Positions 1,212 through 26,770 of a DNA stretch of 64,000 bases are shown here, one piece after another. The stretch comes from Bradyrhizobium sp. CCBAU 051011 (lineage in GTDB: Bacteria > Pseudomonadota > Alphaproteobacteria > Rhizobiales > Xanthobacteraceae), in contig NZ_CP022222.1 in the NCBI RefSeq assembly GCF_009930815.1, forward strand, positions 4,134,501-4,198,500. The letters run 5' to 3'. Both the position numbers and the translations under genes were made by a program. Position 1 is the stretch's first letter. The number at the start of each line of letters is the position of its first letter. Under the pieces are notes generated by a model, which was given only the letters and a program-made list of their open reading frames with translations, did not search any database and was not told where the DNA came from.

Positions 1212-1288
1212 CGGAGTGTGGCTCAGCCCGGTAGAGCACTGCGTTCGGGACGCAGGGGTCGCAGGTTCGAATCCTGCCACTCCGACCA
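1212..1288 (+). tRNA. tRNA-Pro (CGG anticodon)
   Basis: The sequence folds as a complete cloverleaf. The acceptor arms are CGGAGTG (1212-1218) and CACTCCG (1278-1284). The D arm is GGCTCAGCCCGGTAGAGC. The anticodon stem is CTGCG/CGCAG around the loop TTCGGGA, giving anticodon CGG. The T arm is GCAGG-TTCGAAT-CCTGC. The 3' ACCA end is encoded at 1285-1288. An integrase gene ends nine bases downstream, so the tRNA 3' end was probably used as an attachment site and stayed intact. Confidence 0.95.
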
Positions 1289-1296
1289 TGAAATTC

Positions 1297-2544
1297 TTAT
1301 GCTTTTCGTCTTTTTTCACGATAGGCAGCCAAGTCAACCCCGGGAATAACCCCAGATACGCTGTTCTCCTTTGGTTTCGATGTGATTGCGGTGGCCGCGT
1401 CGCGTAAGAACTCCGGATGGTGATGGCCGTAGGTGTCGAGCAGAACCTCGACGGACATGCCGAGGAACCCGGCCGCTTTCCAGGGATCAGCCCCGCGCTG
1501 CATCAGCCTCGTTGCAGCCGTGTGCCGCAAGGTGTGGGGCGTGACCTTTCCCTGCTCGGTGGATAGGCGCGCAAGCCTGACCGCACTCCGGGATCCGGTC
1601 TTCACGGATTTCACGGCCGCTCCATTGAACTCAACGAAGTGCGATATGATTGCATCCGTTCGAACCCAGCGCCGCATATGTGCGAGCAGGCGATCGGGTA
1701 ATGGCGCCGGTGGCTGGCGCTTCTTGGTGCCTGTCTGACCCTGTGCAAGCCGGTAGAAGATGCCGTGCTCCAGATCGACATATGATCGACCTTCATCGCG
1801 ATACGGCGACGCGGATGCGATGGCGCCGGCACGCGTGCCCGTGTAGAGGCCAATCAGGATGAAGCGTGCGATATGACGCAGCGGACGCCTATCCGTTTCT
1901 ATTTTCTGATTTTTCAAGGCGCCGCGATGTTGCGTCTGCACCTCGCGATATCGCCAGCAGGTCCACAAAAGAGCAGCCGCTTCGCTGCGGGTTAGCCATC
2001 GGTCGCGGCCGCGCCCTTTGGCCGGCAGCGCCACACGAACCAGGCCGCGGTGAAGGCCCTCGCGCGAATGGTGGTTTATCGCGGCGCGCAGATCTTCGAG
2101 ATCACGGCGGGCCCCACCTGGTCGACGGCGCGCCTTGACGTACTTTGCGCAGGTATGCGCATTCACTTCAACCAGCATCATGCCCCCAAAAAAATCGTTC
2201 AGGCGGCCAATGCGATCGGCAAATTCTGTGATGTCGGTTTGCTTGGCTTTGCGCTCGAGATAAATACCCTCGCGATGGGCGTGGTAGATTGCGAGCACGT
2301 CCGCGATATCGATATCCTCAATGTCGCGGGTCCGACGTGAAGGTCGATATTTTGAGACAATGTAGTTGGCTAGGGCGTCCTCAGCGGCCTTTGGCGGCTT
2401 TCTTTCAGCTTCGCCCGCAAAGATTCCTGTGGCAACTTCCCGGTCTCCGTCACGGATGGTCCAGACGGCGTTGGCAATGATGCGCCCGTTCTTTCGCTTC
2501 GCCTTTCGTTTGTAGAGCCTTGGGCCCTTACTGATACGCGGCAT
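1297..2544 (-). CDS. Tyrosine-type site-specific integrase
   Basis: This 415-residue protein would catalyse integration and excision of a genomic island. The C-terminal catalytic domain shows the expected residues: Arg238 in YTGTRAG, the H-x-x-R pair in [11 protein letters not shown] (His337, Arg340) and a nucleophilic Tyr372 in [10 protein letters not shown]. The N-terminal 150 residues are basic and probably form the core-binding domain. The gene points toward the 3' end of tRNA-Pro and stops nine bases from it, the classic layout of a tRNA-targeted integrase. An excisionase-like gene precedes and overlaps it. No second copy of the tRNA-Pro 3' end was seen by eye, so the far island boundary is not defined. 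The reading frame is intact. Confidence 0.9.
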
Positions 2545-2747: not shown

Positions 2748-3024
2748 TGTAGCACGTTCGCGGGATGTACGCTGCGCGCACGATTGCGCACCTTTGCGAT
2801 GGTGATCCTCGCGATGACGAATGAAAACGATATTTTCGCTGCATGCTAATAACCCGCATCGAGTGCCCGCGTGTTTCCTCTGGTCCGCTCGTAGACAAAC
2901 GTAAATCAACCTGACGCTGCGTAGTAGAAAAACCTGCGCGTTTCGCCGAACGGATTCGACATGACGAACAGCAATTTAATCCTATGGCGCGCGACGATAT
3001 GTGAATTGCGGCGCACTGGCCGCG

Positions 3025-3071
3025 TCAGGTTCATAACCTGAAGGCCATAGGTTCAAATCCTATCCCTCCAC
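3025..3071 (+). tRNA. 3' half of a tRNA-Met-like gene (CAT loop), attachment-site relic
   Basis: The anticodon arm (TCAGG, loop TTCATAA, CCTGA), variable loop and T arm (ATAGG, TTCAAAT, CCTAT) fold well, followed by CCCTCCA. The matching 5' acceptor strand and D arm are absent upstream, so this is a 3' fragment and not a working tRNA. Fragments of this kind arise when an island recombines at a tRNA 3' end. A terminator follows 16 bases later. Confidence 0.7.
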
Positions 3072-3368: not shown

Positions 3369-3551
3369 AACTACGAAATTCCACGACATTCTTCGATATC
3401 GCACGATGCAGCTCCGGTCTGGTAGGGATTCGTTGCAATGTTCGGTGCAGCGGATAGGGCCCTGTACAACACGGCTAGGAACAAAGCCCTATCCTCTGTA
3501 TTCATTCCGGAGCAGGGTCTAGCGAGCGGCGTGAACGCGACGCTATTATTT

Positions 3552-3876
3552 CGAGCCGCACCCTCGGCGAGACCGGCGAGGAAGAATACGGCATCCAGTA
3601 TGCGGCGCCATCCAAGCATCTGATCCGCGATGCCCGCTGCAACAACCAGTCGCAGAACCACCTCTACAAGCTTTTGCATCGCGGCTACACCGGAAGATCA
3701 ATTCCGGCGAAAGCGCGCGAGGCGTCGCCGCCTGTCCCTACGATTTTTATTCGAAATTGATCGCCGATCCGGAAGGCAAGCGCGAAATGGTCGAGGCGCT
3801 GACGCGCTCCACCGCCGGCACCGAGGAATGCCCGATCGACGGCATCCCGAACGAGCTGACGGGTAGCAATTACTAG
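3552..3876 (+). pseudogene. C-terminal remnant of an aliphatic amidase/formamidase (AmiE/AmiF)
   Basis: The translation [16 protein letters not shown] followed by [19 protein letters not shown] and RGYTG matches the C-terminal region of nitrilase-superfamily aliphatic amidases and formamidases. These enzymes hydrolyse short amides to ammonia and acid. After GYTG the frame shifts, and the match resumes with [17 protein letters not shown] and [11 protein letters not shown], ending at a TAG at 3874-3876. The N-terminal two thirds, including the catalytic Glu-Lys-Cys residues, are missing. It lies next to tRNA fragments, so it was probably cut by island insertion. The product cannot be active. 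Confidence 0.75.
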
Positions 3877-4134
3877 AGCCACCGCGCCATCCACCGGCTT
3901 AGTTCAGCCTCTGGGGCAGGCCAAGGCAACCAGCTTGCTCTGGACCTGACGTCAAGCGAGGACGCTGCGACAAACGTGTTCGGAATTCGCCCTGAGCATC
4001 CTGGCCGCAGGATCACGCGCGCCCAGGCGGCGCCGGGGGGCCTTCCTATCCTTGCCGACTCCTTGGCGCAAGATTTGCTTAACTTGCATCGATGGAGGCG
4101 TTTTTTGGCAGGCAAGCTGGCAAATACCTGGAAG
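3877..4134. other. Intergenic, no gene seen
   Basis: Nothing convincing is coded between the amidase remnant and the regulator. The regulator frame is open back to 3976, but those codons do not resemble the family. Confidence 0.5.
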
Positions 4135-4911
4135 ATGCAAGCCAGCCTCGGCTGGGCTGACCAAGCTCGTTTTGGCGCCATGCTGATGCCCGACGAGAAG
4201 GCGCGGGGAGACGGCCCGGCGCCACTCTTCCAAGGTCTTTCCGAGGCGGAAATCCAGCAGGTCGTCAGCGCCAGCAAGCGCAAGGTCTACTACCGCGGTG
4301 CGCAGGTCTTCAGTCAGGGCAGCCCGCAGGACGGCATCTATCTGGTCGAGAGCGGGCGCATTCGCGTCTTCTACATCGGCCCTTCTGGACGCGAGATCAC
4401 GTTGGCCTATTGGCATCCCGGCAATTTCGTCGGGGGTCCCGACGTGTTCAATCGAGGAATTCACGTCTGGTCAGGCGCGGCTGCGATCAACAGTTCCGTC
4501 CTGCATCTGCCCGGAGACGTGTTGCGCCAGATGGTCCTGAAAATCCCTGCGTTGGCGCTGGGCATCATCGAAGGTCTCAGCTTCAAGGGACGCTGTTATT
4601 CCTCGCTGGCGCAGATGCTCGGCACGCGCTCGCCAACGGAGCGGCTCGCCCATCTGCTGCTGCACTTGATGGATCTTTACGGCGTGAAGGAGCGTAGCGG
4701 CACATTGATCGCAGCCTCATTCACCCATGCCGATCTTGCAAACATGGTAGGCGTAACCCGCCAATGGGTGACCACCACGATCAAGCGCCTAACCGAGATG
4801 GGCGCGCTAGATGCACACGGGACCAATATCCTGATCAAGGATACCGCGCCGCTGGCAAAGATGCGCGACGGCAAGGCAGCCAAGGGTGGTCTTCAGGACG
4901 ACGCAGACTGA
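4135..4911 (+). CDS. Crp/Fnr-family transcriptional regulator
   Basis: The product (258 residues from the ATG at 4135) has a cyclic-nucleotide-binding-like beta-barrel at roughly residues 20-130. The stretch QDGIYLVESGRIRVFYIGP contains the usual turn. A C-terminal winged helix lies around 170-235, with the recognition segment HADLANMVGVTRQWVTTTIK. No Cys cluster of the Fnr type is visible, so an Fe-S oxygen sensor is unlikely. The start is uncertain: the frame opens at 3976, and further ATGs lie at 4180 and 4186. The gene points at the sulfate-ester ABC operon 400 bases downstream, which makes it a candidate regulator of that module, but no binding site was identified. Confidence 0.8.
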   Translation: MQASLGWADQARFGAMLMPDEKARGDGPAPLFQGLSEAEIQQVVSASKRKVYYRGAQVFSQGSPQDGIYLVESGRIRVFYIGPSGREITLAYWHPGNFVGGPDVFNRGIHVWSGAAAINSSVLHLPGDVLRQMVLKIPALALGIIEGLSFKGRCYSSLAQMLGTRSPTERLAHLLLHLMDLYGVKERSGTLIAASFTHADLANMVGVTRQWVTTTIKRLTEMGALDAHGTNILIKDTAPLAKMRDGKAAKGGLQDDAD

Positions 4912-5317
4912 CAACTGGCAACCTCTCGCTTGACTTAATGCGGCGAGCCGCTCCGAGGCGCGTCATGTCGCCCAATATTTCATCAGCAGCTCCCTCGTCT
5001 CTGGCTATTTCCTGAGCAGGCGGACTTTTTCGGCAAGGATTTGCGTGCTGCCGCCGTTCCTTGTTTTAAGAACTGCTTTCCAAGCCCAGAACTCACGTCA
5101 AGCACGACAATTCGGTCGTCTTGAGGGGTTTCGCGAGTGGGCTTCATCGCCGCCGTTTCTTCCTTCGTTAATTCGGTGCGTCGCATGCGGCGGACGGGGA
5201 CAACCTGTCGCGCAAGCAGGGTACAAGCTGGCTTGGCCCTTGCACCCCCGATAGCGCCGAGCGCAGCCCAACGGCGGGCTGCCATCAAAATCCGCGGCAA
5301 ATTAAGGGGTTAACGTG
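4912..5317. other. Intergenic region upstream of the sulfate-ester operon
   Basis: No gene is supported in these ~400 bases. They must contain the promoter of the ABC/sulfatase operon, but I could not pick a convincing -35/-10 pair or a symmetrical Crp/Fnr-type site by eye. An AAGGGG ribosome site precedes the next gene at 5303-5308. Confidence 0.4.
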
Positions 5318-6754
5318 ATGAACATCGCCACACTCGTGTCTTGCGGTTCAAAGGTCGCCCCCTGGTGCGTGGCGGTGGCACTTGTGCTCCCTTCCGGGGA
5401 TTCGCGCGCGCAGGTGTTGGAGATCGGCATCGGCACGCAGAACACGACGACAAATACGGTGACAGGCGGCGTCGTTATCAAGGAGCTTGGTCTTCTCGAG
5501 AAGAACCTGCCGAAGACCGGAAAGTACAAAGATTTCCAATACAAACTCAACTGGCAGAACGCGACGTCGGGTCCGCCGATTACCAACGGCATGATGGCCA
5601 ACAACATCCAGATCGGGATGATGGGTGACTACCCGCTGATGGTGAACGGCGCCACCGGCCAGGCCACCAACAATCCGACCCAGCTCATCGCCATCATCGC
5701 CTACAACGCCGTCGGCGGCGGCAATGGCATCGTGGTCCACAAGGACTCGCCGTTCTATGAGCTCGCCGACCTCAAGGGCAAGAACGTCTCGGTGCCGTTC
5801 GGCTCCGCCGCGCACGGCATGATGCTGACGTCGCTGCAGAAGAAGGGGCTGCCGCCGGATTTCTGGAGCCTCGTCTCGCAGTCGCCGGAAGTCGGCACCA
5901 CCAATCTGCAGGAAAAGCGCATCGACGCCCATGGCGACTTCGTGCCCTTCGCCGAGCTGCTGCCATTTAAGGGCTTCGCCCGCAAGATCTATGACGGTGC
6001 CGAGACCAAGGTGCCAACCTTCCATGGCGTCACCGTGCGTAAGGACTTTGCGGAAAAATATCCGGAGATCGTGATCGCCTACCTGAAGTCGCTGATCGAG
6101 GCCAACGAGTGGATGCGCAAGAATCCGAAGCTCGCCGCCGAGAGGATCGAGGAATGGACCAAGATCAACAAGGAAGTGGTCTATATCTTTCTCGGCCCGG
6201 GCGGCGTGCATACGCTGGACCCCACCATCAAGAAGCTGCAGATCGAATCCGCAGGCGGCAGTTATGCGATCCTGCAGAAACTCAACATGATCAAGCCGCT
6301 CGATATGGGCGCATGGATCAACGACAGCTACATCCGTCAGACTTACAAGGAGCTCGGGCTCGACTACGACAAGCAGCTCGCGGCCTTCGATACCTACAAC
6401 GTCACCGGTACCGATCCCGTCTGCAACGCGCCGGTCAACGATCCAAAGCTGGTCGGCGAAGTCTGGATCCAGGGCGGCGACATCGTCCCCTTCAGCTCGC
6501 CGGTTTGCACACTGCTCGGCGTCAAGAAATACACCGGCGAAGGCAAGAAGCTCAACGCGGTTTACCTGGTCGACCATGAACTCGGGATCAAGGTGTTCGC
6601 CGACGCCGCCTTCTACGCCATCAAGCCTGATGCCAAGAAGCCGGAGGTGGTGCCGTTCCTGCTCAAGAAGGATGCCGAGGCCCATGCTGCGAAGAATGGC
6701 GGCAAGCTTGCCACCTACGCCGAAGCCTTGAGCGCGATCAACGTCGGACAATAG
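5318..6754 (+). CDS. NMT1/TauT-type ABC substrate-binding protein with C-terminal NosL-like domain
   Basis: This is a periplasmic binding protein of the nitrate/sulfonate/sulfate-ester class. A hydrophobic signal peptide ends near residue 31 (DSRAQ). The binding lobes run to about residue 360, with GNGIVVHKDSPFYELADLKG and VSVPFGSAAHGMML as family landmarks. The last ~105 residues are extra. They read DPVCNAPV, then WIQGGDIVPFSSPVC, LNAVYLVDHELGIKVFADAA and PFLLKKDAEAHAAKNGGKL, which is the pattern of NosL, the Cu(I)-binding accessory lipoprotein of nitrous oxide reductase. At 478 residues it is well above the usual ~330. The ATG at 5318 was chosen over the adjacent GTG because AAGGGG lies at good spacing. 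Next to permease, ATPase, sulfatase and FGE genes, a sulfate-ester ligand is likely. Confidence 0.85.
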   Translation: MNIATLVSCGSKVAPWCVAVALVLPSGDSRAQVLEIGIGTQNTTTNTVTGGVVIKELGLLEKNLPKTGKYKDFQYKLNWQNATSGPPITNGMMANNIQIGMMGDYPLMVNGATGQATNNPTQLIAIIAYNAVGGGNGIVVHKDSPFYELADLKGKNVSVPFGSAAHGMMLTSLQKKGLPPDFWSLVSQSPEVGTTNLQEKRIDAHGDFVPFAELLPFKGFARKIYDGAETKVPTFHGVTVRKDFAEKYPEIVIAYLKSLIEANEWMRKNPKLAAERIEEWTKINKEVVYIFLGPGGVHTLDPTIKKLQIESAGGSYAILQKLNMIKPLDMGAWINDSYIRQTYKELGLDYDKQLAAFDTYNVTGTDPVCNAPVNDPKLVGEVWIQGGDIVPFSSPVCTLLGVKKYTGEGKKLNAVYLVDHELGIKVFADAAFYAIKPDAKKPEVVPFLLKKDAEAHAAKNGGKLATYAEALSAINVGQ

Positions 6755-6763
6755 GGGGCGGCG

Positions 6764-7792
6764 ATGGGCAGCATGGCGCGAGCGAAAGTTGCGGCAATCC
6801 CGATCCTCAATGGGCAAATCGATCCGGAGCGGGTCGTCGAGAGCATGATGACGTCAAAACCAGAAACCCCGGTGCCCGCACCGTCGGCCACCGAGGCATC
6901 TGGGCAGCCGAGCCCGGCCGTGGCAGCGGAGCCGGCGGCGACCGAGCCCGAGGTGGTGCCGACAACCTCCCTGCGCGATATCGCGAACGCCGTGCTCAGG
7001 CAGATCACGCGCGACCGACTCATCACGGCGGCCCTCGGCTGCATCTCGATCGGTGCGCTGTTCCTGGTCTGGTATCTCGGAACGAAGTACCGGTTCGAGT
7101 TCTACATCCGCTTCAAGAACGTTCCGACGCCGGCGGAAGTGTTTAACCAGTTGACCCAGGTCGGCCTGTCGAACAAGTACCTCGTCAACATCGCGATCTC
7201 CGTGCGCCGCATCCTGACCGGCTTCTTCATTGCGATCGCCATCGGCGTGCCGCTCGGCCTCCTGATCGGCAAATATCAGCGCGTGCGCGATTTCTTCATG
7301 CCGTGCGTCGAGATCCTGCGGCCGATCCCCGCGATCGCCTGGGTGCCGATGTCGATCATGCTGTGGCCGAACAACGAGGCCGCGATCGTCTACATCACCT
7401 TCATCGGCGCGTTCTTCCCGATCCTGCTCAACACCATCCACGGCGTGCATTCGCTCGACGGCGTGCTGGTCCGTGCAGGCAAATGCCTCGGCGCCAATGA
7501 GGCGCAATTGTTCTGGAACGTGATCCTGCCGGGCTCGCTGCCGCACATCTTTACAGGCCTTGCCGTCGGCATGGGCGTCGCATGGGTATCGCTGATCGCC
7601 GCCGAGATGATCTCGGGCCAGTTCGGCGTCGGTTACTTCACCTGGGAGGCGTACTCGCTGGTGGATTATCCCGCGATCATGCTCGGCATGATCACGATCG
7701 GCGTGCTGGGACTCGCCTGCAGCGGCGTCATCCGCATGGTCGGCGCCTTGTTGATGCCGTGGCTCGCCTTCGCACCGGGAGGGAAGCGATGA
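6764..7792 (+). CDS. ABC transporter permease (SsuC/TauC/AtsB type)
   Basis: This 342-residue inner-membrane protein is the translocation subunit for the binding protein encoded 9 bases upstream. The first ~70 residues are a Pro/Ala/Glu-rich cytoplasmic tail, longer than usual. About six membrane segments follow, from LITAALGCISIGALFLVW to the C-terminus. The EAA loop that docks the ATPase is visible as VRAGKCLGANEAQLFWNVI followed by LPGSLPHIF. A GGGGG-containing ribosome site precedes the ATG. The stop overlaps the ATPase start (ATGA), indicating translational coupling. The family is that of nitrate, sulfonate and taurine importers. The sulfatase neighbour suggests organic sulfate esters as cargo. 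Confidence 0.88.
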   Translation: MGSMARAKVAAIPILNGQIDPERVVESMMTSKPETPVPAPSATEASGQPSPAVAAEPAATEPEVVPTTSLRDIANAVLRQITRDRLITAALGCISIGALFLVWYLGTKYRFEFYIRFKNVPTPAEVFNQLTQVGLSNKYLVNIAISVRRILTGFFIAIAIGVPLGLLIGKYQRVRDFFMPCVEILRPIPAIAWVPMSIMLWPNNEAAIVYITFIGAFFPILLNTIHGVHSLDGVLVRAGKCLGANEAQLFWNVILPGSLPHIFTGLAVGMGVAWVSLIAAEMISGQFGVGYFTWEAYSLVDYPAIMLGMITIGVLGLACSGVIRMVGALLMPWLAFAPGGKR

Positions 7793-8700
7793 CAATGACC
7801 CACGCATACGCTGCTCCGGCGGGGACCGTCAGGGATGCCGTCAATGACAACCCCAAGGGCTTCATCGACGTCCGCAACATGGGAGTCGTATTCGGCAGCA
7901 ACGACAACGAGGTGGTCGCCGTCAGCGACGTTTCCCTCAACGTGAAGCCCGGCGAGTTCGTCTCCCTGATCGGACCGTCCGGCTGCGGCAAGTCGACCCT
8001 GCTCAGCGTCGTCGCCGGCTTCGTCAAGCCGACGCGTGGCGAGGCCATACTGGACGGCAAGCCGATTACCCGGCCCGGCTCGGACCGCGGTGTGGTGTTC
8101 CAGCAATACTCGCTGTTTCCGTGGCTCTCGGTGCGCAAGAACGTCGAGTTCGGGCTGAAGATGGCCGGCGTCGACAGGTACAAGCGCAGCACCACGGCGC
8201 GCTCGCTGCTCGATCTCGCCGGACTTCTCTCGTTCGAGAACCATTATCCCGACCAGCTTTCCGGCGGCATGAAACAGCGCATCGGCATCGTCCGCGCGCT
8301 GGCGACCAGCCCCCAGGTGCTGCTGATGGACGAGCCGTTCGGCGCGCTCGATACGCAGACCCGCGTCGTGATGCAGGAGATCCTGACCAACATCTGGCAG
8401 CAGTTCCGTATCTCGGTGCTGTTCATCACCCACGACATCGAGGAATCGATTTTCCTCTCTGACCGCATCTACGTCATGACGGCACGGCCCGGACGCATCA
8501 AGGCCGAGATCAAGGTGCCGCTACCGCGTCCGCGCACGCCCGAAATGACCGACACACCGGAGTTCATAAACCTGGTGCAGGAGCTCAAGGGGCTGATCCG
8601 CGAAGAGTCGCTCGCCGCCATGGCCCCCGAGATCAAGGATCGGGGTCTCTCGGGCTTTGGAATGAAAGTGGGACCGAAAGGAGTGGGCGAACTCTACTGA
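7789..8700 (+). CDS. ABC transporter ATP-binding protein (SsuB/TauB/AtsC type)
   Basis: The 303-residue protein powers the importer. Walker A is GPSGCGKST, the Q-loop lies in VVFQQYSLFPWLSV, the signature is LSGGMKQRIGIVRAL, Walker B is VLLMDEPFGALD and the switch histidine is in FITHDIEES. The LFPWLSV segment is typical of the nitrate/taurine/sulfonate ATPase subfamily. The ATG at 7789 overlaps the permease stop. A ~35-residue C-terminal tail extends past the usual end. After the stop there is a ~110-base gap containing a strong hairpin before the next translated region, so the sulfatase could be expressed at a different level. Confidence 0.92.
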   Translation: MTMTHAYAAPAGTVRDAVNDNPKGFIDVRNMGVVFGSNDNEVVAVSDVSLNVKPGEFVSLIGPSGCGKSTLLSVVAGFVKPTRGEAILDGKPITRPGSDRGVVFQQYSLFPWLSVRKNVEFGLKMAGVDRYKRSTTARSLLDLAGLLSFENHYPDQLSGGMKQRIGIVRALATSPQVLLMDEPFGALDTQTRVVMQEILTNIWQQFRISVLFITHDIEESIFLSDRIYVMTARPGRIKAEIKVPLPRPRTPEMTDTPEFINLVQELKGLIREESLAAMAPEIKDRGLSGFGMKVGPKGVGELY

Positions 8701-8776
8701 TACCTCAGACTTCGCTGCCGGGCAGGGAGCGAAACAACAACTCAAGGAAAATGACGCGTGACCCGCGTCGTTAAGG

Positions 8777-8800
8777 GATTGGCGCGCTTTAGCGCCAATC
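8777..8800 (+). promoter_or_regulatory. Perfect 9-bp hairpin between transporter and sulfatase genes
   Basis: GATTGGCGC (8777-8785) pairs exactly with GCGCCAATC (8792-8800) around the loop GCTTTA. No T run follows, so it is not a standard terminator. It could be a processing or stability element that separates transporter and sulfatase expression, or a protein-binding palindrome. The function is inferred only. Confidence 0.4.
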
Positions 8801-8814
8801 GATCGGAGCGTTCT

Positions 8815-9021
8815 ATGGCAAGGAAACCAAGCATTGTTCATGCCGGCAACTTCGGCATGGCTGAGTTCGGTGCGCCGCTCAGAGCAGTGTGGCGCCGGCT
8901 CGCCGCGATCATTGGCAGCAGATACCAGCCCGAGCGGCACTACATGCGCGGACCAGGCCCGAAATGGCAGGAAAACCATTCCGCAAGTCACGCACAACCG
9001 AAAATCAAGGACCCGGCGTGA
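8815..9021 (+). CDS. Short ORF resembling a decayed copy of the sulfatase N-terminus
   Basis: The ATG at 8815 is preceded by CGGAG, and the peptide begins MARKPSIVHAGNFGMAEFG. The true sulfatase begins MAKKPNILFFHVDNLGMGEL after the same CGGAG-type site. The DNA around both starts is also alike, which suggests that the ribosome site and first ~20 codons were duplicated and then diverged. The remaining ~48 residues have no sulfatase resemblance. It may be a non-functional relic, or a translated leader that affects initiation of the sulfatase 23 bases downstream. Whether it is translated is unknown. Confidence 0.35.
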   Translation: MARKPSIVHAGNFGMAEFGAPLRAVWRRLAAIIGSRYQPERHYMRGPGPKWQENHSASHAQPKIKDPA

Positions 9022-9044
9022 GCAACGCCTCTAACGGAGCTACT

Positions 9045-10406
9045 ATGGCCAAAAAACCAAACATTCTGTTCTTTCACGTCGACAACCTCGGCATGGGTGA
9101 GCTCGGCTGCTACGGCGGCGGCATGCTGCGCGGCGCCGACACCAAGCGATTTGACGCGTTCGCCAAGGAAGGCATGAAGCTGACGCATTACGTCGTCGAG
9201 CCCCAGTGCACACCGACCCGTTCTGCGCTGATGACCGGACGCTTCCCGATCCGCTCGGGCAATCACACCATCGCGCTCGGCGGCAATGGCGGAGGCATCG
9301 TCACTTGGGAGCGCACCATCGCCTCGATCTTGGCGGAGGCCGGCTATACCTCGTCGATCTACGGCAAGTGGCACATCGGCGCCGAGGACGGCCGCTTCCC
9401 CACCGATCACGGCTTTGACGAGTGGTACGGACCCTTGCGCACCTATGACGAGTGCATGTGGCTGGAAGATCCGCACTACGTGCCGGAGCGCGACGGCTAT
9501 TCCCACATGCATGAGGGCGTGAAAGGCAAGGGCGCCTGGCCGGTCAAGGACCAGCAGCTCACCATGGAGACCAAGAAGACCTGCGACCTCGAATACCAGA
9601 AGCGGGCGATCAAGTTCATGGAGAAGGCGGTCAAGGACGACAAGCCGTTCTACTGCTACTTCAACCACTCGCTGATGCATTTCCCGATGAGCCCGCGCGA
9701 CGAATTCGTCGGCAAGAGCGACAACGGCGACTGGGGCGATTGTCTCTTGATGCTCGACCACGATTTCGGCGTGCTGCTCGACACGCTAGACCGGCTCGGC
9801 ATTCGCGACAACACCATCGTGGTCGCATGTGGCGACAACGGCGCGGAGGATCATCTTGCCGGCCGCGGCACCGGCGGCTTCTTCGACGGTTCCTACTTTT
9901 CCTCGGCGGAAGGCGGCATCCGCACTCCGCTCTTGATCCGTTACCCGAACCACATCAAGGCCGGCGCCGAGAGCAATGAGATGGTGCATGTCACCGACAT
10001 GTTCACCACGCTGCTCAAGTTCGTCGGCTGCGAGGCACCGAAGGATCGCCTGATCGATGGCGTCGACCAGACCCCGTTCTTCACCGGTAAGCAGCCGGCC
10101 TCCAACCGCGAATCCTGCATCGTCTGGCTCAAGGACGAGTTGCATGCGGTGAAGTGGAAGGACTTCAAGATCAACTTCAAGCGGCAGCAGCATTTCCACG
10201 ATCCGGAACTAGACCTCGGCTTTGCCCGCATCACACATCTGAAGGAGGACCCGAAGGAGCGCGAGGCGGTCAACCAGCGCTATGTGCGCTGGTGGGTCAT
10301 GCAGCACGCCCATCGCGTCGTACGCGACTTCGAGAACAGCGTGAAGAAGGAAGAGCTGATCCCGCCGGGATCGCCGCTCGACTTCGTTCCGAAGAAGTTC
10401 GCTTAA
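9045..10406 (+). CDS. Cysteine-type sulfatase (arylsulfatase family)
   Basis: Sulfatases hydrolyse sulfate esters using a formylglycine made from Cys or Ser. Here the modification motif is CTPTRSALMTGR with Cys55, so the enzyme is of the Cys type that needs an aerobic formylglycine-generating enzyme. Metal-ligand segments are HVDNLGMGELGCYGG near the N-terminus, with the usual second Asp replaced by Asn, and VACGDNGAEDH around residue 260. No signal peptide is present, so hydrolysis should be cytoplasmic, after import by the ABC system. The frame is open upstream to 8889, but the ATG at 9045 has GGAG six bases away and fits the family start. The length (453) is normal. The substrate is not determined. 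Confidence 0.9.
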   Translation: MAKKPNILFFHVDNLGMGELGCYGGGMLRGADTKRFDAFAKEGMKLTHYVVEPQCTPTRSALMTGRFPIRSGNHTIALGGNGGGIVTWERTIASILAEAGYTSSIYGKWHIGAEDGRFPTDHGFDEWYGPLRTYDECMWLEDPHYVPERDGYSHMHEGVKGKGAWPVKDQQLTMETKKTCDLEYQKRAIKFMEKAVKDDKPFYCYFNHSLMHFPMSPRDEFVGKSDNGDWGDCLLMLDHDFGVLLDTLDRLGIRDNTIVVACGDNGAEDHLAGRGTGGFFDGSYFSSAEGGIRTPLLIRYPNHIKAGAESNEMVHVTDMFTTLLKFVGCEAPKDRLIDGVDQTPFFTGKQPASNRESCIVWLKDELHAVKWKDFKINFKRQQHFHDPELDLGFARITHLKEDPKEREAVNQRYVRWWVMQHAHRVVRDFENSVKKEELIPPGSPLDFVPKKFA

Positions 10407-10427
10407 ACGATCAGGCGAGGCCCGGCC

Positions 10428-11399
10428 GTGGATATCATCGCATCGCATTGCTGTTCGAAGCGCGGCACTTCGCTGGATGCCGGTGTGTCCGTGGCCGGTG
10501 ACCCGAGGACAACGGCCCGCCGGAAAGACATGGTCTTCATTCCCGGCGGAACGTTTCTTATGGGCTCCAACGCGTTCTACCGCGAGGAGCGGCCGGTGCG
10601 CAGCGAGACCGTCGACGGATTTTGGATCGACCGCTTTCCGGTGACCAATGGGGAATTCTCCCGCTTTACTGCGGCTACCGGCTACGTCACATTCTCCGAG
10701 CGCGTGCCGACCCGGAAAATGTATCCGGACGCGGCGCCCGAATTCCTCGTTCCGGGTTCGCTCGTCTTCGTCAAGCCGCCGCGCCCGGTGAGCCTTCGCG
10801 ATTACCGGGCATGGTGGGCCTATGTGCCCGGCGCCAACTGGCGTCACCCCAACGGGCCAAGCTCTTCGATTCAACACAAAGACAAGTATCCCGTCGTGCA
10901 TGTCACTTACGAGGACGCGCAGGCCTACGCGGCCTGGGCCGGCAAGGAATTGCCGGACGAGGCACAGTGGGAATTCGCCGCGCGCGGCGGCCTCGAGGGT
11001 GCCGCCTATGCGTGGGGCGATGCTGCCAATCCCGAAGGCCGCTACATGGCCAATACCTGGCAGGGACGTTTTCCCTTCGAGAACCTGAGCCAGGACGGCT
11101 TTGAGGGTACGTCGCCGGTCGATGCATTCCCGCCGAACGGCTTTGGGCTGCACGACATGGCCGGCAATGTCTGGGAGTGGACCTCGTCGCTTTACTCGCC
11201 GCAGGGCGGTGCCGACAAATCATGCTGCCAGCGCGACGACGCCGATCCGCGCAGGCAGCTCTACGTGGTGAAGGGCGGCTCGCATCTGTGTGCTCCCAAT
11301 TACTGCCTGCGCTTTCGCCCTGCCGCGCGGCAGGGCGAGAGTACCGATTCATCGACATGTCACATCGGCTTCCGCTGCGTCGTGCGCGGGTCGAACTGA
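10428..11399 (+). CDS. Formylglycine-generating enzyme (SUMF1/FGE family)
   Basis: FGE oxidises the sulfatase motif cysteine to formylglycine using O2 and Cu(I). The core starts with MVFIPGGTFLMGS and ends with GFRC. The copper-binding cysteine pair is conserved in VVKGGSHLCAPNYCLRFRP (C-x4-C, as in authentic FGE). That separates it from non-catalytic SUMF1-fold proteins. Other landmarks are the GNVWEWTSS and NGFGLHDMAG segments. The start is a GTG at 10428; an ATG at 10530 right at the domain edge is an alternative. No signal peptide is seen, which matches the cytoplasmic sulfatase encoded 21 bases upstream. The tight pairing strongly implies that it matures that enzyme. Confidence 0.92.
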   Translation: MDIIASHCCSKRGTSLDAGVSVAGDPRTTARRKDMVFIPGGTFLMGSNAFYREERPVRSETVDGFWIDRFPVTNGEFSRFTAATGYVTFSERVPTRKMYPDAAPEFLVPGSLVFVKPPRPVSLRDYRAWWAYVPGANWRHPNGPSSSIQHKDKYPVVHVTYEDAQAYAAWAGKELPDEAQWEFAARGGLEGAAYAWGDAANPEGRYMANTWQGRFPFENLSQDGFEGTSPVDAFPPNGFGLHDMAGNVWEWTSSLYSPQGGADKSCCQRDDADPRRQLYVVKGGSHLCAPNYCLRFRPAARQGESTDSSTCHIGFRCVVRGSN

Positions 11400-11417
11400 G
11401 AATCTGAGGAAAAACCT

Positions 11418-12617
11418 ATGCGCGCATCCTATCTCTTCACCAGCGAGTCCGTGTCGGAAGGCCATCCCGACAAGGTATGCGACCGCATCTCCGACGAGAT
11501 TGTCGACCTGTTCTTTCGCGAGGGCGCCAAGGCCGGCGTAGACCCCTGGAGCATCCGCGCCGCCTGCGAGACGCTCGCAACCACGAACAAGGTGGTGATC
11601 GCGGGCGAGACGCGCGGGCCATCCTCAGTGACCAACGAGCAGATCGAGCAGGTCGCGCGCGGGGCAATCAAGGACATTGGTTACGAGCAGGAGGGCTTCC
11701 ATTGGAAAAATGCCGACGTGCAAGTGTTGCTGCATCCGCAGTCGGCCGATATCGCGCAGGGCGTCGACGCACACCAGCCCGGCACCAACCGCGAGGAGGG
11801 CGCCGGCGACCAGGGCATCATGTTTGGCTATGCCACCAATGAGACATCGGAGTTGATGCCTGCGCCGATCTTCTATGCGCACAAGATCCTGCGGCTGATT
11901 TCGGAAGCGCGGCGTGCAGGTGAGGAAAAGGTGCTGGGCCCCGACTCCAAGAGCCAGGTCACGGTGCAGTACGAGAGTGGCAAGCCGATCGGCATCCGCG
12001 AGATCGTGGTCTCCCACCAGCACCTGATCGAGGACATGAGTTCCAGCCAGGTGCGCGAGCGGGTCGAGCCCTATGTGCGCGCAGCGCTGCCAGAAGATTG
12101 GATCTCGGACAAGACCATCTGGCACATCAACCCGACCGGCAAATTCTTCGTCGGCGGTCCGAACGGCGATGCCGGGCTCACCGGCCGAAAGATCATCGTC
12201 GATACCTATGGCGGCGCGGCGCCACATGGCGGCGGCGCGTTCTCCGGCAAGGATTCAACCAAGGTGGACCGTTCTGCGGCCTATGCGGCGCGCTACCTCG
12301 CAAAAAACATCGTTGCCGCCGGGCTCGCCGACAGGGTGACCTTGCAGCTCTCCTACGCGATCGGGGTAGCGCGACCGCTGTCGATCTATATCAACACCCA
12401 CGCCACTGGAAAGGTCGCCGACGACAAGCTGGAAAAGGCCATCGCCGAGTCGATGGATCTGACGCCACGCGGCATCCGCAGGCATCTCCAGCTCAACAAG
12501 CCGATCTATGCCCGCACCGCGGCCTATGGCCATTTCGGCCGCACGCCGGAAAGCGACGGCGGTTTCTCCTGGGAAAAAACCGATCTCACCGACGCGCTGA
12601 AGCGCGCCGTGCAATAG
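11418..12617 (+). CDS. metK: S-adenosylmethionine synthetase
   Basis: This cytoplasmic enzyme makes S-adenosylmethionine from methionine and ATP. The 399-residue protein is full length, with the N-terminal [18 protein letters not shown] segment, the [13 protein letters not shown] motif and the [19 protein letters not shown] phosphate-binding loop. It lies 18 bases after the FGE gene and 9 bases before SulP, in the same operon. Alphaproteobacteria usually carry metK next to a tRNA methyltransferase gene, so this may be a second copy tied to sulfur supply. That is an inference, because the rest of the genome is not visible. FGE itself does not need SAM, so the link is metabolic and not mechanistic. 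Confidence 0.95.
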
Positions 12618-12626
12618 GGCAGTGCC

Positions 12627-14141
12627 ATGACCGCGATCGACGACCGCACGGCGCAGAGGACATTCGAGGATTCGCCCTCGATCGGCTCGATGCTGACCTC
12701 GCCGAGGGAATTCACACGCGAGACGCTGGCTGGCGTGGTAACGGCACTCGCGCTGATCCCCGAGGTGATTTCGTTCTCCTTTGTCTCTGGCGTCGACCCC
12801 AAGGTCGCGTTGTTCTCGTCGGTCGTGCTCGGGCTTGTGATGTCCGTGCTCGGTGGCCGGCCCGCCATGGTGACGGCGGCTGCAGGCTCGATTGCGCTCG
12901 TGATCGGGCCGATGGTGAAGGCCTATGGGCCCGGCTACATCCTGCCGACCATCATCCTGGCCGGTATCGTCCAGATCGCATTTGGCCTTTTGGGGATGGC
13001 GCGACTGACCCGCTTCATCCCGCGTTCAGTGATGATCGGCTTCGTCAATTCGCTGGGCATCCTGATCTTCTTCGCCCAAGTGCCCCACATTTTGAACGTT
13101 CTCTGGATCGTCTATCCCCTGTTCGCGCTGACAATTGCAATCGTGCTGCTGGCGCCACGGGTGATCACCATAATTCCGGCGCCGCTGATCGCCATTGTCA
13201 TTGTCACGGCGATCGTCATCTCAGGTCATCTCACGGTGCCCAATGTCGGCGGCAGTGGCGGCGCGATGGCGCCGGGCCTGCCGGGCATCACGCATTTCGT
13301 AGTGCCGCTCAATCTGGAGACGCTCAGCATCGTCTGGCCGACCGCGCTCAGCGTGGCTTTTGTCGGACTGCTGGAGACGCTGCTCACGGCAAAACTGGTC
13401 GATGACGTCACCGACAGCCGCTCGCACAAGGGCAAGGAATCCTGGGCGCTCGGCGTCGCCAATATCGCGGCCGGTTTCTATGGCGGCATCGCCGGCTGCG
13501 CCATGATTGCGCAGACTGTCGTCAATGTGAAGATCGGCGGCGGCCGCTCGCGGATATCGACTGTTGCTGCGGCGATCGTGCTGCTGGTGCTGGTTACGGT
13601 GCTTAGCAGTCTGATGGCGCAGATTCCGCTCGTGGCGTTGGCGGCCGTCATGATGATTGCCGCGGTGAAGACGTTCGATTGGCACAGCGTGATGCCCTCC
13701 ACGCTCAAGCGCATGCCGAAGTCGGAAACCGCAGTGCTGGTAGTGACGGTGGTCATCACGGTCGCAACCGGCAATCTCGCCTTCGGCATCGCCGGCGGCG
13801 TGCTGCTTGCCATGGTGCTCTTCGCCAGACGCGTCGCTCATGTCATCCGCGTCGAGCGAGTGCCGAGCGAGGACGGCAGTTCAGTCCGCTACGCCGTGCA
13901 CGGACCCTTGTTCTTCGGGAGCAGCAACGACTTCGTCGAGCGCTTTTCGTATCGTGCGGATCCAAAGGAGATCACTGTCGATCTCACATCGTCCCAGATA
14001 TGGGATGCTTCAAGTGTCGCCGCACTCGACGCGATCGAAACGAAGTACCGCGCGCTGGGTCACTCCATCAAATTCACCGGGCTCGATCCGCGAAGTCTTG
14101 CCTTTCACGGAAGGCTGACGGGTCAATTGAACGGACAATAG
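12627..14141 (+). CDS. SulP-family anion (sulfate) permease with STAS domain
   Basis: The 504-residue protein has about 10-12 hydrophobic segments, beginning with LAGVVTALALIPEVISFSFV, a signature of the SulP/SLC26 family. A C-terminal STAS domain occupies about residues 420-500 (VRYAVHGPLFFGSSNDFVE, then VDLTSSQIWDASSVAALDAI). The family exchanges or co-transports sulfate, bicarbonate and dicarboxylates across the inner membrane. As the last gene of the sulfatase operon it could take up sulfate or export excess sulfate released in the cytoplasm; direction cannot be read from sequence. It is separated from metK by only nine bases. A terminator lies about 230 bases downstream. Confidence 0.9.
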   Translation: MTAIDDRTAQRTFEDSPSIGSMLTSPREFTRETLAGVVTALALIPEVISFSFVSGVDPKVALFSSVVLGLVMSVLGGRPAMVTAAAGSIALVIGPMVKAYGPGYILPTIILAGIVQIAFGLLGMARLTRFIPRSVMIGFVNSLGILIFFAQVPHILNVLWIVYPLFALTIAIVLLAPRVITIIPAPLIAIVIVTAIVISGHLTVPNVGGSGGAMAPGLPGITHFVVPLNLETLSIVWPTALSVAFVGLLETLLTAKLVDDVTDSRSHKGKESWALGVANIAAGFYGGIAGCAMIAQTVVNVKIGGGRSRISTVAAAIVLLVLVTVLSSLMAQIPLVALAAVMMIAAVKTFDWHSVMPSTLKRMPKSETAVLVVTVVITVATGNLAFGIAGGVLLAMVLFARRVAHVIRVERVPSEDGSSVRYAVHGPLFFGSSNDFVERFSYRADPKEITVDLTSSQIWDASSVAALDAIETKYRALGHSIKFTGLDPRSLAFHGRLTGQLNGQ

Positions 14142-14368
14142 TTACGACGAGGTAGGGCTGCGAGGCACAGTCATGGGATTCGCAATACTCTCAATCTTCG
14201 TTTTGCTCGCACTAGAACATATCGTCCTCCACTAAGAGGACCACGAAGTTCGACATCCGCACCTCCGATTTACCGCGTAAATTCGGGTGGTAGGATTTGG
14301 TTCACTGCGGTGGTGACAGGAAGGATACATCCCATAGATTGTTCGAGTTTCCTGCGAAGTCGTTAAGA

Positions 14369-14437: not shown

Positions 14438-15154
14438 ATGCCGGGGTTCATTAAGCCCCAGCTCGCCACGTTGAAGTCCAAGGCACCCAAGGGTGACCAG
14501 TAGCTGCATGAAATTAAGTACGACGGCTACCGCATTCAGCTTCATGTCAATAGGGGCAGGAAGAAAGTCTACACGCGGAGCGGCCTCGATTGGACCAAGC
14601 GTTTTTCCACCATCGCAGGCGCACTGGACATTCCTGGCGAAGCAATCATCGACGGTGAGGTGGTTGTCACCCATGAGGGGCGCACCAACTTCTCCGAATT
14701 GCAGGCAGAGCTGGCAGCGGGCAGGCAGGATCGATTGGTTTTCTACGCCTTTGACCTCCTATGGCGTGATGGTGACCTCCGCAAGCTGCCGACGATTGAA
14801 CGCAAGCAGGCGCTGCTGGACTTGCTCGGCGAAAACGGCATCGAGGCTCCCATCGTGTACAGCGAACATCTTGTTGGCGACGGGCAATCGATGTTCGAGC
14901 ATGCGGCCAAGCTGAATTGGGAGGGCGTCATTTCTAAGCGGGCTGACGCCCCTTATCGTTCGGAGCGCAATGAGAACGGGAGGCCCGCCTCAAGCCCCGC
15001 CCGCTCCATCATTCGAGCGAACCCGGCTGTCGTGAACGGACCAGCCCGCTCACTGGTGAACACGAAAGGTGACTTCGGCTCTTGCTCCCGCTGCAACCGA
15101 CAAAGGCCCGCAGTTCATCACATGATCGGATGGGAGCTGGGTGTGCTCGCTTGA
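14438..15154 (+). pseudogene. Broken ATP-dependent DNA ligase (LigD ligase-domain type)
   Basis: The frame begins MPGFIKPQLATLKSKAPKGD, then hits a TAG at 14501-14503 where LigD-type ligases have a Trp. It continues without shift through LHEIKYDGYRIQLHV (the KYDG lysine is the nucleotidyl-transfer residue), GEAIIDGEVVV and WEGVISKRADAPYRS. After about 14975 the homology stops and unrelated sequence runs to 15154. The OB domain and remaining motifs are lost. The family seals strand breaks in bacterial end joining. A TGG-to-TAG change plus truncation makes this a pseudogene. It lies at the start of an accessory zone. Confidence 0.85.
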
Positions 15155-23679: not shown

Positions 23680-25794
23680 CTACCCGGTCAGCACATCTTC
23701 AATTCGGATCGGCAGGGTGCGCACGCGTTTGCCGGTCGCGTGAAAGACGGCGTTGGCGATGGCTGGAGCCATGCCGACGAGCGCGATCTCGCCGAGGCCT
23801 TTGACGCCAAGCGCGTTGACGTGTGGATCCAGCTCCTCGACGAAGTGCGCTTCGAGTTGGGGAACGTCGAGATTCACGGGCAGGAGGTAATCGGCCATGT
23901 GGGCATTGACCGGGCGTCCGTCGCGCGGATCGAGGACAGTGCGCTCCATGAGCGCCATACCCATACCGCCGATCATGCCGCCAATGCATTGGCTCCTCGC
24001 AAGTCGCGGATTAACGACGCGGCCGATGCCATAGGCGCCTACTGCACGGCGCAGCCGGATCGTCCCGACGTCCGGATCGACAGCCACCTCCGCAAATACG
24101 GCTCCAAAGGAGTGCATGGAAAATCGGGCCGCAACATCGGGATCGCGCTGAGCCGAAGCCGTAGCCTCGATGGGTCGGCCATCCTGAGGGCCTTTTGCGG
24201 CTTCTTCCTGCACGGCCATGCAGGCGGCACGGACCGCAGAGCCGACCGAGGCCATCGTCCAGGAGCCACCATGGGATGGAGCGGGCGGATAGTCAGAGCG
24301 GCCCAGGCTGAAGCGCACCCGTTCAATAGGCAGTCCTAGCGTCTCGGCGGCAACTTGCGTCATGGACGTGTAGGTGCCAGGGCCCATGTCGCTTGCCGCC
24401 ACTTCAACTTCGGCCGTGCCGTCCGCGAGCAGCCGCGCCCGCGCACTCGCCGGCGCGTGGAAGGCCGGATAGCTCGCCGATGCGACACCCATGCCGACCA
24501 GCAGCCGGCCATCGCGCATCGAACGCGGCTCGGGTAACCGCCGCGACCAGCCGAAACGTTCGGCGGCGAGGTCATGGCATTTCATGAGGGATCGGCTGGA
24601 GAAGGGCTTGTTCTCGCCCTCATCGATCGCCGGCTCGTTGCGGCGCCGCAGATCTATGGAATCGATCCCGAGCTTGTACGACAATTCATCGACGGCACAT
24701 TCGAGCGCAAAGACACCGCTGGCCTCGCCAGGACCACGCATATGGTTCGGGGTGCCGATATCGAGTGGCAGCAGCCGGTAGCGGGTCCGCACGTTCGGCG
24801 TGGAGTACAGGAAGGTCGTCACTGACGTCAGAGCCTCCATGAACTCTTCATAGCGGCTCGTCTCTCCGGTGCCTTCGTGAACAATGCTGGTGAGCTTGCC
24901 GTCCGCCGTGGCGCCGAGCGCCATCCGCTGCAAGGTGCGGGGGCGATGGCCCGTCATGAAGAACATCTGCTTGCGCGTGAGCACGAGCTTGACGGGACGC
25001 CCCACTTGCCGCGCCGCCATGGCCGCAAGCGTCACGTGTGGCCACGTCCTCAGCGTCGTACCGAAGGCGCCACCGATAAACGGACAGATCACCTGTACGT
25101 TCTCGGACGGCAGGCCGAAGACGGCCGCGACCTCGGCCTGTTCGTTGACGACGAACTGGCTCTTGCTCCACAGCGTCAGCCGATTGCCATTCCAGGCCGC
25201 GACGGTGGCATGCGGCTCCATTGGACTGTGGTTCTCGCGCGCGATTTCGTAGATCTCGTCGACCCTCACCGGCGCATCCGCGAGAGCGCTGTTGGCATTG
25301 CCGCGCGCGGTGTCGGCTGGCAGCCTCGCATCCGGCTGCTTCCCGGCTTCCGGGACGACAGGCCGGGCTTTTGCGTCGGCAGGATCAATGATCGGCCGCT
25401 CGGCCGTGTAGGAGATACGTAGCGCGGCAGCCGCGCGCTCCGCCTGCTCGAGCGTATCGGCGACGACGATCGCTACCGGTTGCCCATAGAAACGCACGTG
25501 GTCCTCCTGCAACACATGCAGCCGCTCGCCCGTGGCCGGATCGATGTAGCTCTTGTGGGGTGCATACGGCAGGCGTGGCGCATTGCGATGCGTGATGACT
25601 GCAATGACGCCTGGCATCTTCTCAACCGGCGCGGCGTCGATGCCGGTCACGCGGCCGAGACCGACCGTGGCACCGGCGACCACCGCGTAGGCCTGGCTGG
25701 GCTGGTTGAAGTCAGCGGCATAGCGCGCGACGCCGGTGACCTTGGCGCGACCATCCACGCGCGGCAGCGGCTTCCCGATCACGTTCGTCGTCAT
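23680..25794 (-). CDS. paoC: Molybdopterin-binding subunit of aldehyde oxidoreductase (PaoC/XdhA type)
   Basis: This is the large catalytic subunit of a periplasmic xanthine-dehydrogenase-family enzyme that oxidises aldehydes with water. The 704-residue product starts at an ATG overlapping the stop of the FAD subunit gene. The first ~130 residues form the a/b hammerhead domain (GRAKVTGVARYAADF). The Mo-cofactor domains follow, with CPFIGGAFGT and the C-terminal GLGEIALVGMAPAIANAVF, whose Glu is the catalytic base of the family. Its own Tat signal is absent. In PaoABC only the 2Fe-2S subunit carries one and the complex is exported folded. No dedicated cofactor chaperone gene (PaoD) is next to it. 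Confidence 0.9.
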   Translation of the reverse strand: MTTNVIGKPLPRVDGRAKVTGVARYAADFNQPSQAYAVVAGATVGLGRVTGIDAAPVEKMPGVIAVITHRNAPRLPYAPHKSYIDPATGERLHVLQEDHVRFYGQPVAIVVADTLEQAERAAAALRISYTAERPIIDPADAKARPVVPEAGKQPDARLPADTARGNANSALADAPVRVDEIYEIARENHSPMEPHATVAAWNGNRLTLWSKSQFVVNEQAEVAAVFGLPSENVQVICPFIGGAFGTTLRTWPHVTLAAMAARQVGRPVKLVLTRKQMFFMTGHRPRTLQRMALGATADGKLTSIVHEGTGETSRYEEFMEALTSVTTFLYSTPNVRTRYRLLPLDIGTPNHMRGPGEASGVFALECAVDELSYKLGIDSIDLRRRNEPAIDEGENKPFSSRSLMKCHDLAAERFGWSRRLPEPRSMRDGRLLVGMGVASASYPAFHAPASARARLLADGTAEVEVAASDMGPGTYTSMTQVAAETLGLPIERVRFSLGRSDYPPAPSHGGSWTMASVGSAVRAACMAVQEEAAKGPQDGRPIEATASAQRDPDVAARFSMHSFGAVFAEVAVDPDVGTIRLRRAVGAYGIGRVVNPRLARSQCIGGMIGGMGMALMERTVLDPRDGRPVNAHMADYLLPVNLDVPQLEAHFVEELDPHVNALGVKGLGEIALVGMAPAIANAVFHATGKRVRTLPIRIEDVLTG

Positions 25795-26768
25795 GCGGCT
25801 TCTCCCGTCATCTCAAGGGCGCGAACGATCGTGCGGGGCAGGAGTTCGAGCTTGTAGTGATTGCCCGACAGCGGACGGGCTCCTTCGACTGCCAACCGGG
25901 CGGCTGTCTCGAACACTTTGCGATCCGGCGCCTTGCCGATCAGCGTTTTCTCCACCGCGCGCAGGCGCCACGGCCGAGTACCCACACCGCCGACAGCGAG
26001 CCGCGCCTGGCGGATCACACCGCCGCCAACGTCGAGTGCGGCGGCCGCGGACACCAGCGCGAACTCATAGGAGGCGCGGTCGCGCACCTTGAGATAGCGC
26101 GCCCGCCGGCTGTACGGGCCGCCGGGGACCCGCACCGCGAGGATGAGTTCGCCAGGCAGCAGCGTGTGTTCGAGATGGGGCGTGTCGCCTGGCAGACGAA
26201 AGAGTTCCTCGATTGGAAAGCTGCGCTCGCCGCGCGGTCCACTCACCTGCATCGTAGCTTCGAGGGCGACCAGGACGACGGCGAGGTCCGAAGGATGCGT
26301 CGCGACGCAATGATTGCTGGTGCCGAGAATGGCGTGGCCGGCATTGAGTCCATCGATGGCGGCGCAACCGGAGTTCGGGGTGCGCTTATTGCAGGGCGCA
26401 TCGTGCATCCGGAAATAGGGGCAGCGCACGCGCTGGAGCAGATTGCCGCCGATGGAGGCCATGTTGCGCAGTTGCGGCGAGGCGCCCTCGATCAGGCTTT
26501 CGGCGACGAGCGGGTGCAGGCGCTGCACGTCGGGATGGGCGGCGACATCGGCCATGCGGGCGAGCGCGCCGATCACGAGATCGGAGCCATCGATACGGAC
26601 TTCGGAAAGCGGGAGCGTGTTGATGTCGACAAGGTGCTCCGGCTGCTCCACCTCCTCCCGCATGAGGTCGATCAACGTCGTACCACCGGCGATGAAACGT
26701 CGGCCGGACGATGCAGCGGCGATAGCGTCTTGGACGGAGGTCACCTTCTCGAGCGTGAATGGAAGCAT
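25791..26768 (-). CDS. paoB: FAD-binding subunit of aldehyde oxidoreductase (PaoB type)
   Basis: The 325-residue subunit transfers electrons from the Fe-S clusters to FAD. FAD-binding segments are AASSGRRFIAGGTTLIDLM near residue 30 and SIGGNLLQRVRC near 110. The insertion CPYFRMHDAPCNK followed by NSGCAAIDGLN and NHCVATHPSDLA contains the four cysteines that hold the extra 4Fe-4S cluster of E. coli PaoB. I chose the ATG at 26768, two bases after the stop of the 2Fe-2S gene, over the longer frame to 26828. Its stop overlaps the start of the molybdenum subunit gene. Confidence 0.9.
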   Translation of the reverse strand: MLPFTLEKVTSVQDAIAAASSGRRFIAGGTTLIDLMREEVEQPEHLVDINTLPLSEVRIDGSDLVIGALARMADVAAHPDVQRLHPLVAESLIEGASPQLRNMASIGGNLLQRVRCPYFRMHDAPCNKRTPNSGCAAIDGLNAGHAILGTSNHCVATHPSDLAVVLVALEATMQVSGPRGERSFPIEELFRLPGDTPHLEHTLLPGELILAVRVPGGPYSRRARYLKVRDRASYEFALVSAAAALDVGGGVIRQARLAVGGVGTRPWRLRAVEKTLIGKAPDRKVFETAARLAVEGARPLSGNHYKLELLPRTIVRALEMTGEAA

Positions 26769-26770
26769 GG

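Follow-up and report, generated by a model that had tools for sequence, protein, structure and literature searches.

Which of the genes between positions 4,135 and 14,141 of a 64,000-nucleotide stretch of Bradyrhizobium sp. CCBAU 051011 (contig NZ_CP022222.1, positions 4,134,501 to 4,198,500; the whole stretch is referred to as the window in the following) belong together, and what might they do? The initial annotation of this locus had proposed a self-contained module for the uptake and cytoplasmic cleavage of sulfate esters. Our comparison with other genomes and plasmids revealed a real, conserved, and mobile unit, the core of which consists of a regulator, an ATP-binding cassette (ABC) importer of the SsuA/TauA type, a formylglycine (FGly) sulfatase lacking a signal peptide, a formylglycine-generating enzyme (FGE), and a SulP permease. 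With a probability of about 0.62, we read this unit as a mobile, self-activating organosulfate-uptake module, in which import of the substrate, activation of the sulfatase by FGE, desulfation in the cytoplasm, and passage of the sulfate through SulP would follow one another.

All eight genes were confirmed at the places previously assigned to them on the forward strand. A gene for a Crp/Fnr-type regulator (4180..4911, start possibly at 4135; PF00027 and PF13545, but below every equivalog cut-off) is followed after 403 bp by the gene for the substrate-binding protein (5315..6754) and, 9 bp further on, by that for the permease (6764..7792, PF00528), which overlaps the ATPase gene (7789..8700, PF00005; gap of -4). 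The sulfatase gene (9045..10406) begins after another 344 bp, followed by those for FGE (10491..11399, alternative GTG start at 10428; PF03781) with a gap of 84 bp, or 21 bp from the alternative start, metK (11418..12617, TIGR01034) with a gap of 18 bp, and the SulP permease with its STAS domain (12627..14141, PF00916 and PF01740) with a gap of 9 bp. This leaves two tight blocks, one for the importer and one for sulfatase, FGE, metK, and SulP, 344 bp apart, with the regulator standing apart; a single operon for the whole gene set is presumed.

Scanning named genomes with the binding protein yielded 27 loci, 21 of them with the sulfatase, three with an AprA-like flavoprotein and no sulfatase, one with the importer only (an actinobacterial metagenome-assembled genome, MAG), and two cut by contig ends. 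With the window, further genomes, and three plasmids (one from Paraburkholderia, two actinobacterial) included, the number of sulfatase loci rose to 30. This count is biased, because either binding protein or sulfatase served as the probe by which each locus was found, and many of the loci are closely related. The distribution rests on genome and plasmid collections; the binding protein had matches in 453 plasmid records, and eight loci were examined among the 30 records listed. In 30 of 30 sulfatase loci, from Alphaproteobacteria, Betaproteobacteria, and the two actinobacterial plasmids, FGE and SulP accompanied the sulfatase, so that SulP, which had been regarded as an unusual member before, turned out to be a constant one. 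Only its place or shape varied: in Acidisphaera (L076) SulP is located upstream of the binding protein, and that of Gordonia (L160), unannotated, is split into fragments in different reading frames. A related binding protein was present in 29 of the 30, the exception at the threshold used being L159. Eight other Bradyrhizobium-type loci have one common flank (L060 with L061, L064, L066, L069, L151, L152, and L154). Among the six core genes, the sulfatase gene revealed the lowest dN (nonsynonymous divergence) in 10 of 11 comparisons, with the exception of B. jicamae, where binding protein and SulP were lower. That these genes keep company in otherwise unrelated contexts speaks for more than chance. 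The comparison of gene order across genomes, Bradyrhizobium included, which the initial annotation had suggested, thus kept sulfatase, FGE, and SulP together throughout, while metK was found in only 3 of 30 loci and was therefore rejected as a core member.

The sulfatase was assigned by domain and fold to the S1 FGly sulfatases, its best fold and sequence matches being sulfatases; the residues noted were D13, N14, C55 (FGly), R59, K108, H110, H212, D264, N265, and Y284. The motif CTPTR (C-x-P-x-R) with Cys55 and Arg59 was found in all 30 loci, and FGly formation at Cys55 is presumed. Peak hydrophobicity of a 12-residue stretch within residues 1–45 was 1.07, indicating no signal peptide; the 15 sulfatase-type rows of our alignment A4 lacked one likewise, and 6 of 13 other rows scored 2.2–2.4. 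The description of the enzyme as a Cys-type sulfatase without signal peptide was thus borne out, and it is predicted to be cytoplasmic. Two positions are atypical: Tyr284 stands at the aligned position of the active-site Lys, Lys302 in arylsulfatase A numbering, and Asn14 replaces one metal-site Asp, both in 30 of 30 sulfatases; at these two positions, Lys and Asp were found in five chains from four solved sulfatases. Of the active-site pair of Lys and His, the Lys is gone and the His (His212) is kept. As most other active-site residues are retained, placement in the S1 family stands, with an atypical site. FGE (PF03781, 277.1 bits) had solved FGEs as its best relatives of known structure (E 5e-75), and its Cys-x4-Cys copper pair, already recognized in the initial annotation, aligned to that of the solved enzymes and was present in 22 of 22 ortholog rows. 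Three further FGE-domain loci were detected in the genome, one beside two other sulfatases. A relative of the sulfatase (43%) is encoded on a plasmid of Synechococcus elongatus UTEX 3055 (L161), in a sulfonate-uptake cluster with ssuD and with an annotated anaerobic sulfatase maturase in place of FGE.

In the mechanism that we propose, the SsuA/TauA-type importer would take a small sulfated organic anion, still intact, into the cytoplasm. There, the sulfatase encoded alongside, which has no signal peptide, would have its Cys55 oxidised to formylglycine by FGE and, once activated, would free sulfate, which SulP may carry over the inner membrane, either to export a surplus or to recapture it. 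Import of the intact ester, either direction of SulP, and the mode of regulation are putative. Import and cytoplasmic cleavage, as claimed before, gain support from the SsuA/TauA-like binding protein, the leaderless sulfatase, the FGly motif encoded beside a typical FGE, and the retention of the set across phyla. Regarding the substrate, aromatic (phenolic) sulfate esters are probably the most likely class, since phenolates are good leaving groups and would fit the loss of the leaving-group lysine.

The genome, a single contig of 9.10 Mb, has a tRNA-Pro (CGG) gene at 1212..1288 of the forward strand, adjoined by a gene for a tyrosine-type integrase on the reverse strand (1297..2544, PF00589), and 52 bp of the 3' end of the tRNA (1238-1289) recur with 98% identity at G000:C1:4286516-4286567, equal to window coordinates 152016-152067. 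Based on the integrase and this far repeat, the unit lies within a tRNA-targeted island of about 151 kb. Within it, a stretch of 10.6 kb (3550..14157, forward strand) has counterparts of about 87.5% DNA identity in B. jicamae (covering 3550-14149) and in genome G554 (3555-14157), and the flanks of these two are unlike those of the window but common to each other. No terminal repeat of 9 or more bases was reported at the ends of the 10.6-kb unit. A tRNA-like fragment was also found inside the island at 3010-3063 (Rfam tRNA, 32.8 bits, model positions 9-63).

The importer turned out to be less specific to the sulfatase than the term self-contained had implied: it belongs, together with the regulator, to a family that also goes with another enzyme cluster, so that this claim holds in part. 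In a phylum-wide sample of 398 genomes, the binding protein was found at E 1e-70 or better in 20, our genome included. Of the 19 other loci, 18 carried the AprA-like flavoprotein and none the sulfatase, the exception being L123. This sister cluster also holds a small ferredoxin, a HEAT protein, and DUF971 (GBBH-like_N), often with FdxA and a ferredoxin-NADP reductase; seven further plasmid loci, two of them cyanobacterial, were of the AprA type as well, and Crp or GntR regulators occur with both types. In a tree of 42 binding proteins, rooted by choice on cyanobacteria, the 15 sulfatase-type rows formed one clade (99/99) nested among AprA-type rows, and one Rhodocyclales MAG (L073/L146) combined both cassettes in one locus with a single importer. 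Among 265 Bradyrhizobium genomes, 22 had the sulfatase-type binding protein (at least 81% identity to that of the window), 144 that of the AprA type (calculated from a tally of 175 by subtraction, after nine of a third type), and 90 none; both types together were observed in none, against 12.0 expected (P 1.0e-8, phylogeny ignored). In the genome of the window, no AprA-like flavoprotein of the sister family scored over the cut-off (best 87 bits vs. 587). We suggest that importer and Crp/GntR regulator were drawn from a family mostly serving the cluster of AprA-like flavoprotein, ferredoxin, and HEAT protein, and that in one lineage sulfatase, FGE, and SulP took the place of the AprA-like enzymes. 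An exchange of the two cassettes at one chromosomal site was rejected, as no flanks were shared among the loci compared.

As for the sister flavoprotein itself, its best solved relatives were the alpha subunits of 3'-phosphoadenosine 5'-phosphosulfate (PAPS) and adenosine 5'-phosphosulfate (APS) reductases, the former from M. thermolithotrophicus and the latter AprBA (8a8o, E 1.6e-56; 2fja, 4.9e-39), with differing contact residues. The available text of PMC2211403 names Arg-A265 and Trp-A234 of APS reductase as contacting sulfate; in 30 of 30 flavoprotein rows from 29 distinct loci, these are replaced by Leu and Tyr, respectively. This substitution makes a substrate other than that of APS reductase likely for the putative sister enzyme. 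Where APS reductase has the substrate Arg, the flavoprotein strictly keeps the motif NPL(I/M)KDYNGP. Clusters of this kind (L112-L130 and L085-L091) were seen in Alphaproteobacteria, Betaproteobacteria, and on cyanobacterial plasmids.

Fold comparison of the binding-protein model placed the sulfonate and taurine binders SsuA and TauA on top. Its C-terminal part (about residues 365-475) is a NosL-like domain but not a NosL: the window protein scored 17 bits, below the cut-off of 24, and 30 of 34 family members matched NosL at E 0.1 or better (best 2e-8). VIA-align of the model gave no NosL among the matches listed, which were filled by one domain and so carry no weight either way. While CXM is the copper motif of NosL according to the part of PMC6530538 at hand, the window protein has CNA, and the Cys is missing in cyanobacterial and rhizobial AprA-type rows. 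Copper delivery was rejected, since conservation of the Cys residues does not extend over the whole family. The initial annotation had covered neither this domain nor the tRNA-Pro island and the lineage-specific nature of metK.

Among known systems, the AtsRBC importer and AtsA arylsulfatase of Pseudomonas form an import-then-cleave pair. As generally described, this pair resembles our unit in its sulfonate/taurine-type ABC importer, leaderless FGly sulfatase, and logic, but AtsA of P. aeruginosa (1hdh) and the window sulfatase are only remotely related (E 6e-24 vs. 1.1e-59 for PsFucS1, 7aj0), and the Crp or GntR regulator as well as FGE and SulP inside the unit set it apart. With the choline sulfatase cluster of BetC it shares a cytoplasmic-type rhizobial sulfatase acting, here putatively, on a small organosulfate, but the window sulfatase reached only 78.1 bits against a cut-off of 433, and the leaving-group residue Lys309 of SmCS, as given in an excerpt of PMC5870055, has no Lys counterpart in it. 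The aromatic-sulfonate system asfRABC comprises, in the available part of PMC4267179, a binding protein, an ABC transporter, a reductase followed by a ferredoxin, and a LysR regulator. The AprA-like sister clusters match this composition, with LysR in some loci, and occur in Variovorax and Cupriavidus, genera named there for asfA, while the window module carries a sulfatase instead. The CHR2 replicon of C. metallidurans CH34 is reported, in a source available in part, to carry AsfA/AsfB, but its best match to the flavoprotein was 28%, in a different neighbourhood. The cluster was therefore rejected as a proven asf system and asf identity is only a lead, which, if right, would favour an aromatic ligand for the window importer too. 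A likeness to the Sec-assisted organometallic (SAO) ABC system was seen in SaoP and SaoA as best NCBIfam matches of permease and ATPase and in a NosL/MerB-like partner domain; membership was rejected, as all scores lay far below the cut-offs (permease 153.1 of 295, ATPase 273.9 of 360, SaoX 21.3 of 300). A Slf-type alkylsulfatase operon was also rejected, as its enzyme is of a different class (PMC3346939, available in part).

Several points weigh against the organosulfate-uptake reading. A scan of 17 stretches upstream of the binding-protein gene revealed no Crp/Fnr palindrome common to the loci, and the mutual exclusion of the two Bradyrhizobium types was computed without correction for phylogeny. 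The nearest relative outside the sulfatase group (L043, 55%) is also without a clear leader. The model region 270-286 around Tyr284 has a predicted local distance difference test (pLDDT) score below 50, so that the placement of this residue in the active site rests on the alignment, and a substrate other than a sulfate might also account for the missing Lys. Finally, a nutrient role leaves extra copies of gyrB and metK unexplained. The window metK (473.9 bits for TIGR01034, cut-off 309.4) is the second intact copy of the genome, the other (8756670-8757845) sharing 84% protein identity with it; a third copy (G000:C1:7604222-7605186, L056) is frameshifted and 78-80% identical. Within the module, metK was found in the window, B. 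jicamae, and G554, all close Bradyrhizobium, and it is missing from the module of L058 although the binding protein is 93% identical; it joined the module late, in a single Bradyrhizobium lineage. Full-length extra gyrB genes (above the TIGR01059 cut-off), without metK, were identified within the module of the Rhodocyclales MAG (L146:3073-5589) and of plasmids of Mycobacterium adipatum (L159:8579-10501) and Gordonia amicalis (L160:5855-7792), at distances of 5 bp downstream of SulP and 9 bp downstream of the sulfatase gene, and with a 4-bp overlap with the FGE gene, respectively. The MAG copy is of a long, insert-bearing type and the two plasmid copies, 74% identical to each other, of a short type, which makes separate recruitment likely.

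These extra genes are the main ground for reading the unit as a detoxification or tolerance module, in which a sulfated compound or the freed alcohol or phenol would inhibit an essential enzyme, a spare copy of which is carried (metK here, gyrB elsewhere). Elsewhere, on a separate contig, the MAG carries a second full gyrB, and DUF202 proteins were found near gyrB in all three gyrB-bearing loci. However, neither gene was present in 24 of 30 loci within the stretches searched, an importer is an odd means of avoiding a toxin, the assignment to the MAG could be wrong, and the two MAG gyrB copies are 68% identical with no tolerance-type change established. To our knowledge, no sulfated inhibitor of both MetK and GyrB is on record. 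We thus consider this reading unlikely. Slightly more doubtful still is a combination of both roles, namely nutrient scavenging with target protection: one sulfur-anion importer and regulator would serve interchangeable cassettes (AprA-like redox enzymes, or the Tyr-for-Lys sulfatase acting on a sulfate whose leaving group is exceptionally good), essential enzymes would be hit by the freed product or its sulfated form, and spare targets would have been acquired repeatedly (gyrB in Rhodocyclales, Mycobacterium, and Gordonia, metK in Bradyrhizobium).

The invariant Tyr284 and Asn14, together with a weak NCBIfam match to PehA (47.5 bits, cut-off 900), would also fit an enzyme that in vivo hydrolyses another ester, such as a phosphonate or a phosphate mono- or diester, a kind of reaction known from certain enzymes of the alkaline phosphatase superfamily. 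We give this little credence, as the best fold and sequence matches are sulfatases, SulP is a constant partner, and the fold of the binding protein is nearest to sulfonate and taurine binders. Equally poorly placed is a sulfur-starvation operon feeding released sulfur to methionine and S-adenosylmethionine, with SulP an added exporter, as the initial annotation had it: metK is intact and closely spaced between FGE and SulP on one strand, but its rarity among the loci and the other intact copy in the genome do not support this step, and SulP is present with or without metK.

Returning to the organosulfate-uptake module, sulfate esters are one of the two main organic sulfur forms in soil, as stated in the available text of PMC4267179, and a portable set of importer, activator, and sulfatase, distributed among several phyla, would give compact access to them. 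In the open-licence PMC literature, we found no publications describing this unit. New here are the cassette swap behind one importer, the sulfatase with Tyr in place of Lys, and the repeated presence of additional essential genes (gyrB and metK). The swap between AprA-like redox and hydrolytic cassettes offers a handle on the substrate of both systems, the conserved replacement of Lys by Tyr departs from accepted sulfatase chemistry in a way that lends itself to direct testing, and the recurring spare gyrB or metK could reveal the effect of the substrate on the cell.

Further features were observed in the surroundings of the unit. Directly after the module, a truncated DNA ligase (LigD)-like frame was noted by eye at 14493-15154, a longer copy of which lies just past the far island repeat (L147:7856-8764, likewise by eye). 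In the same island, molybdopterin-type dehydrogenase subunits (PF02738, PF00941) are encoded at 23680-26828.

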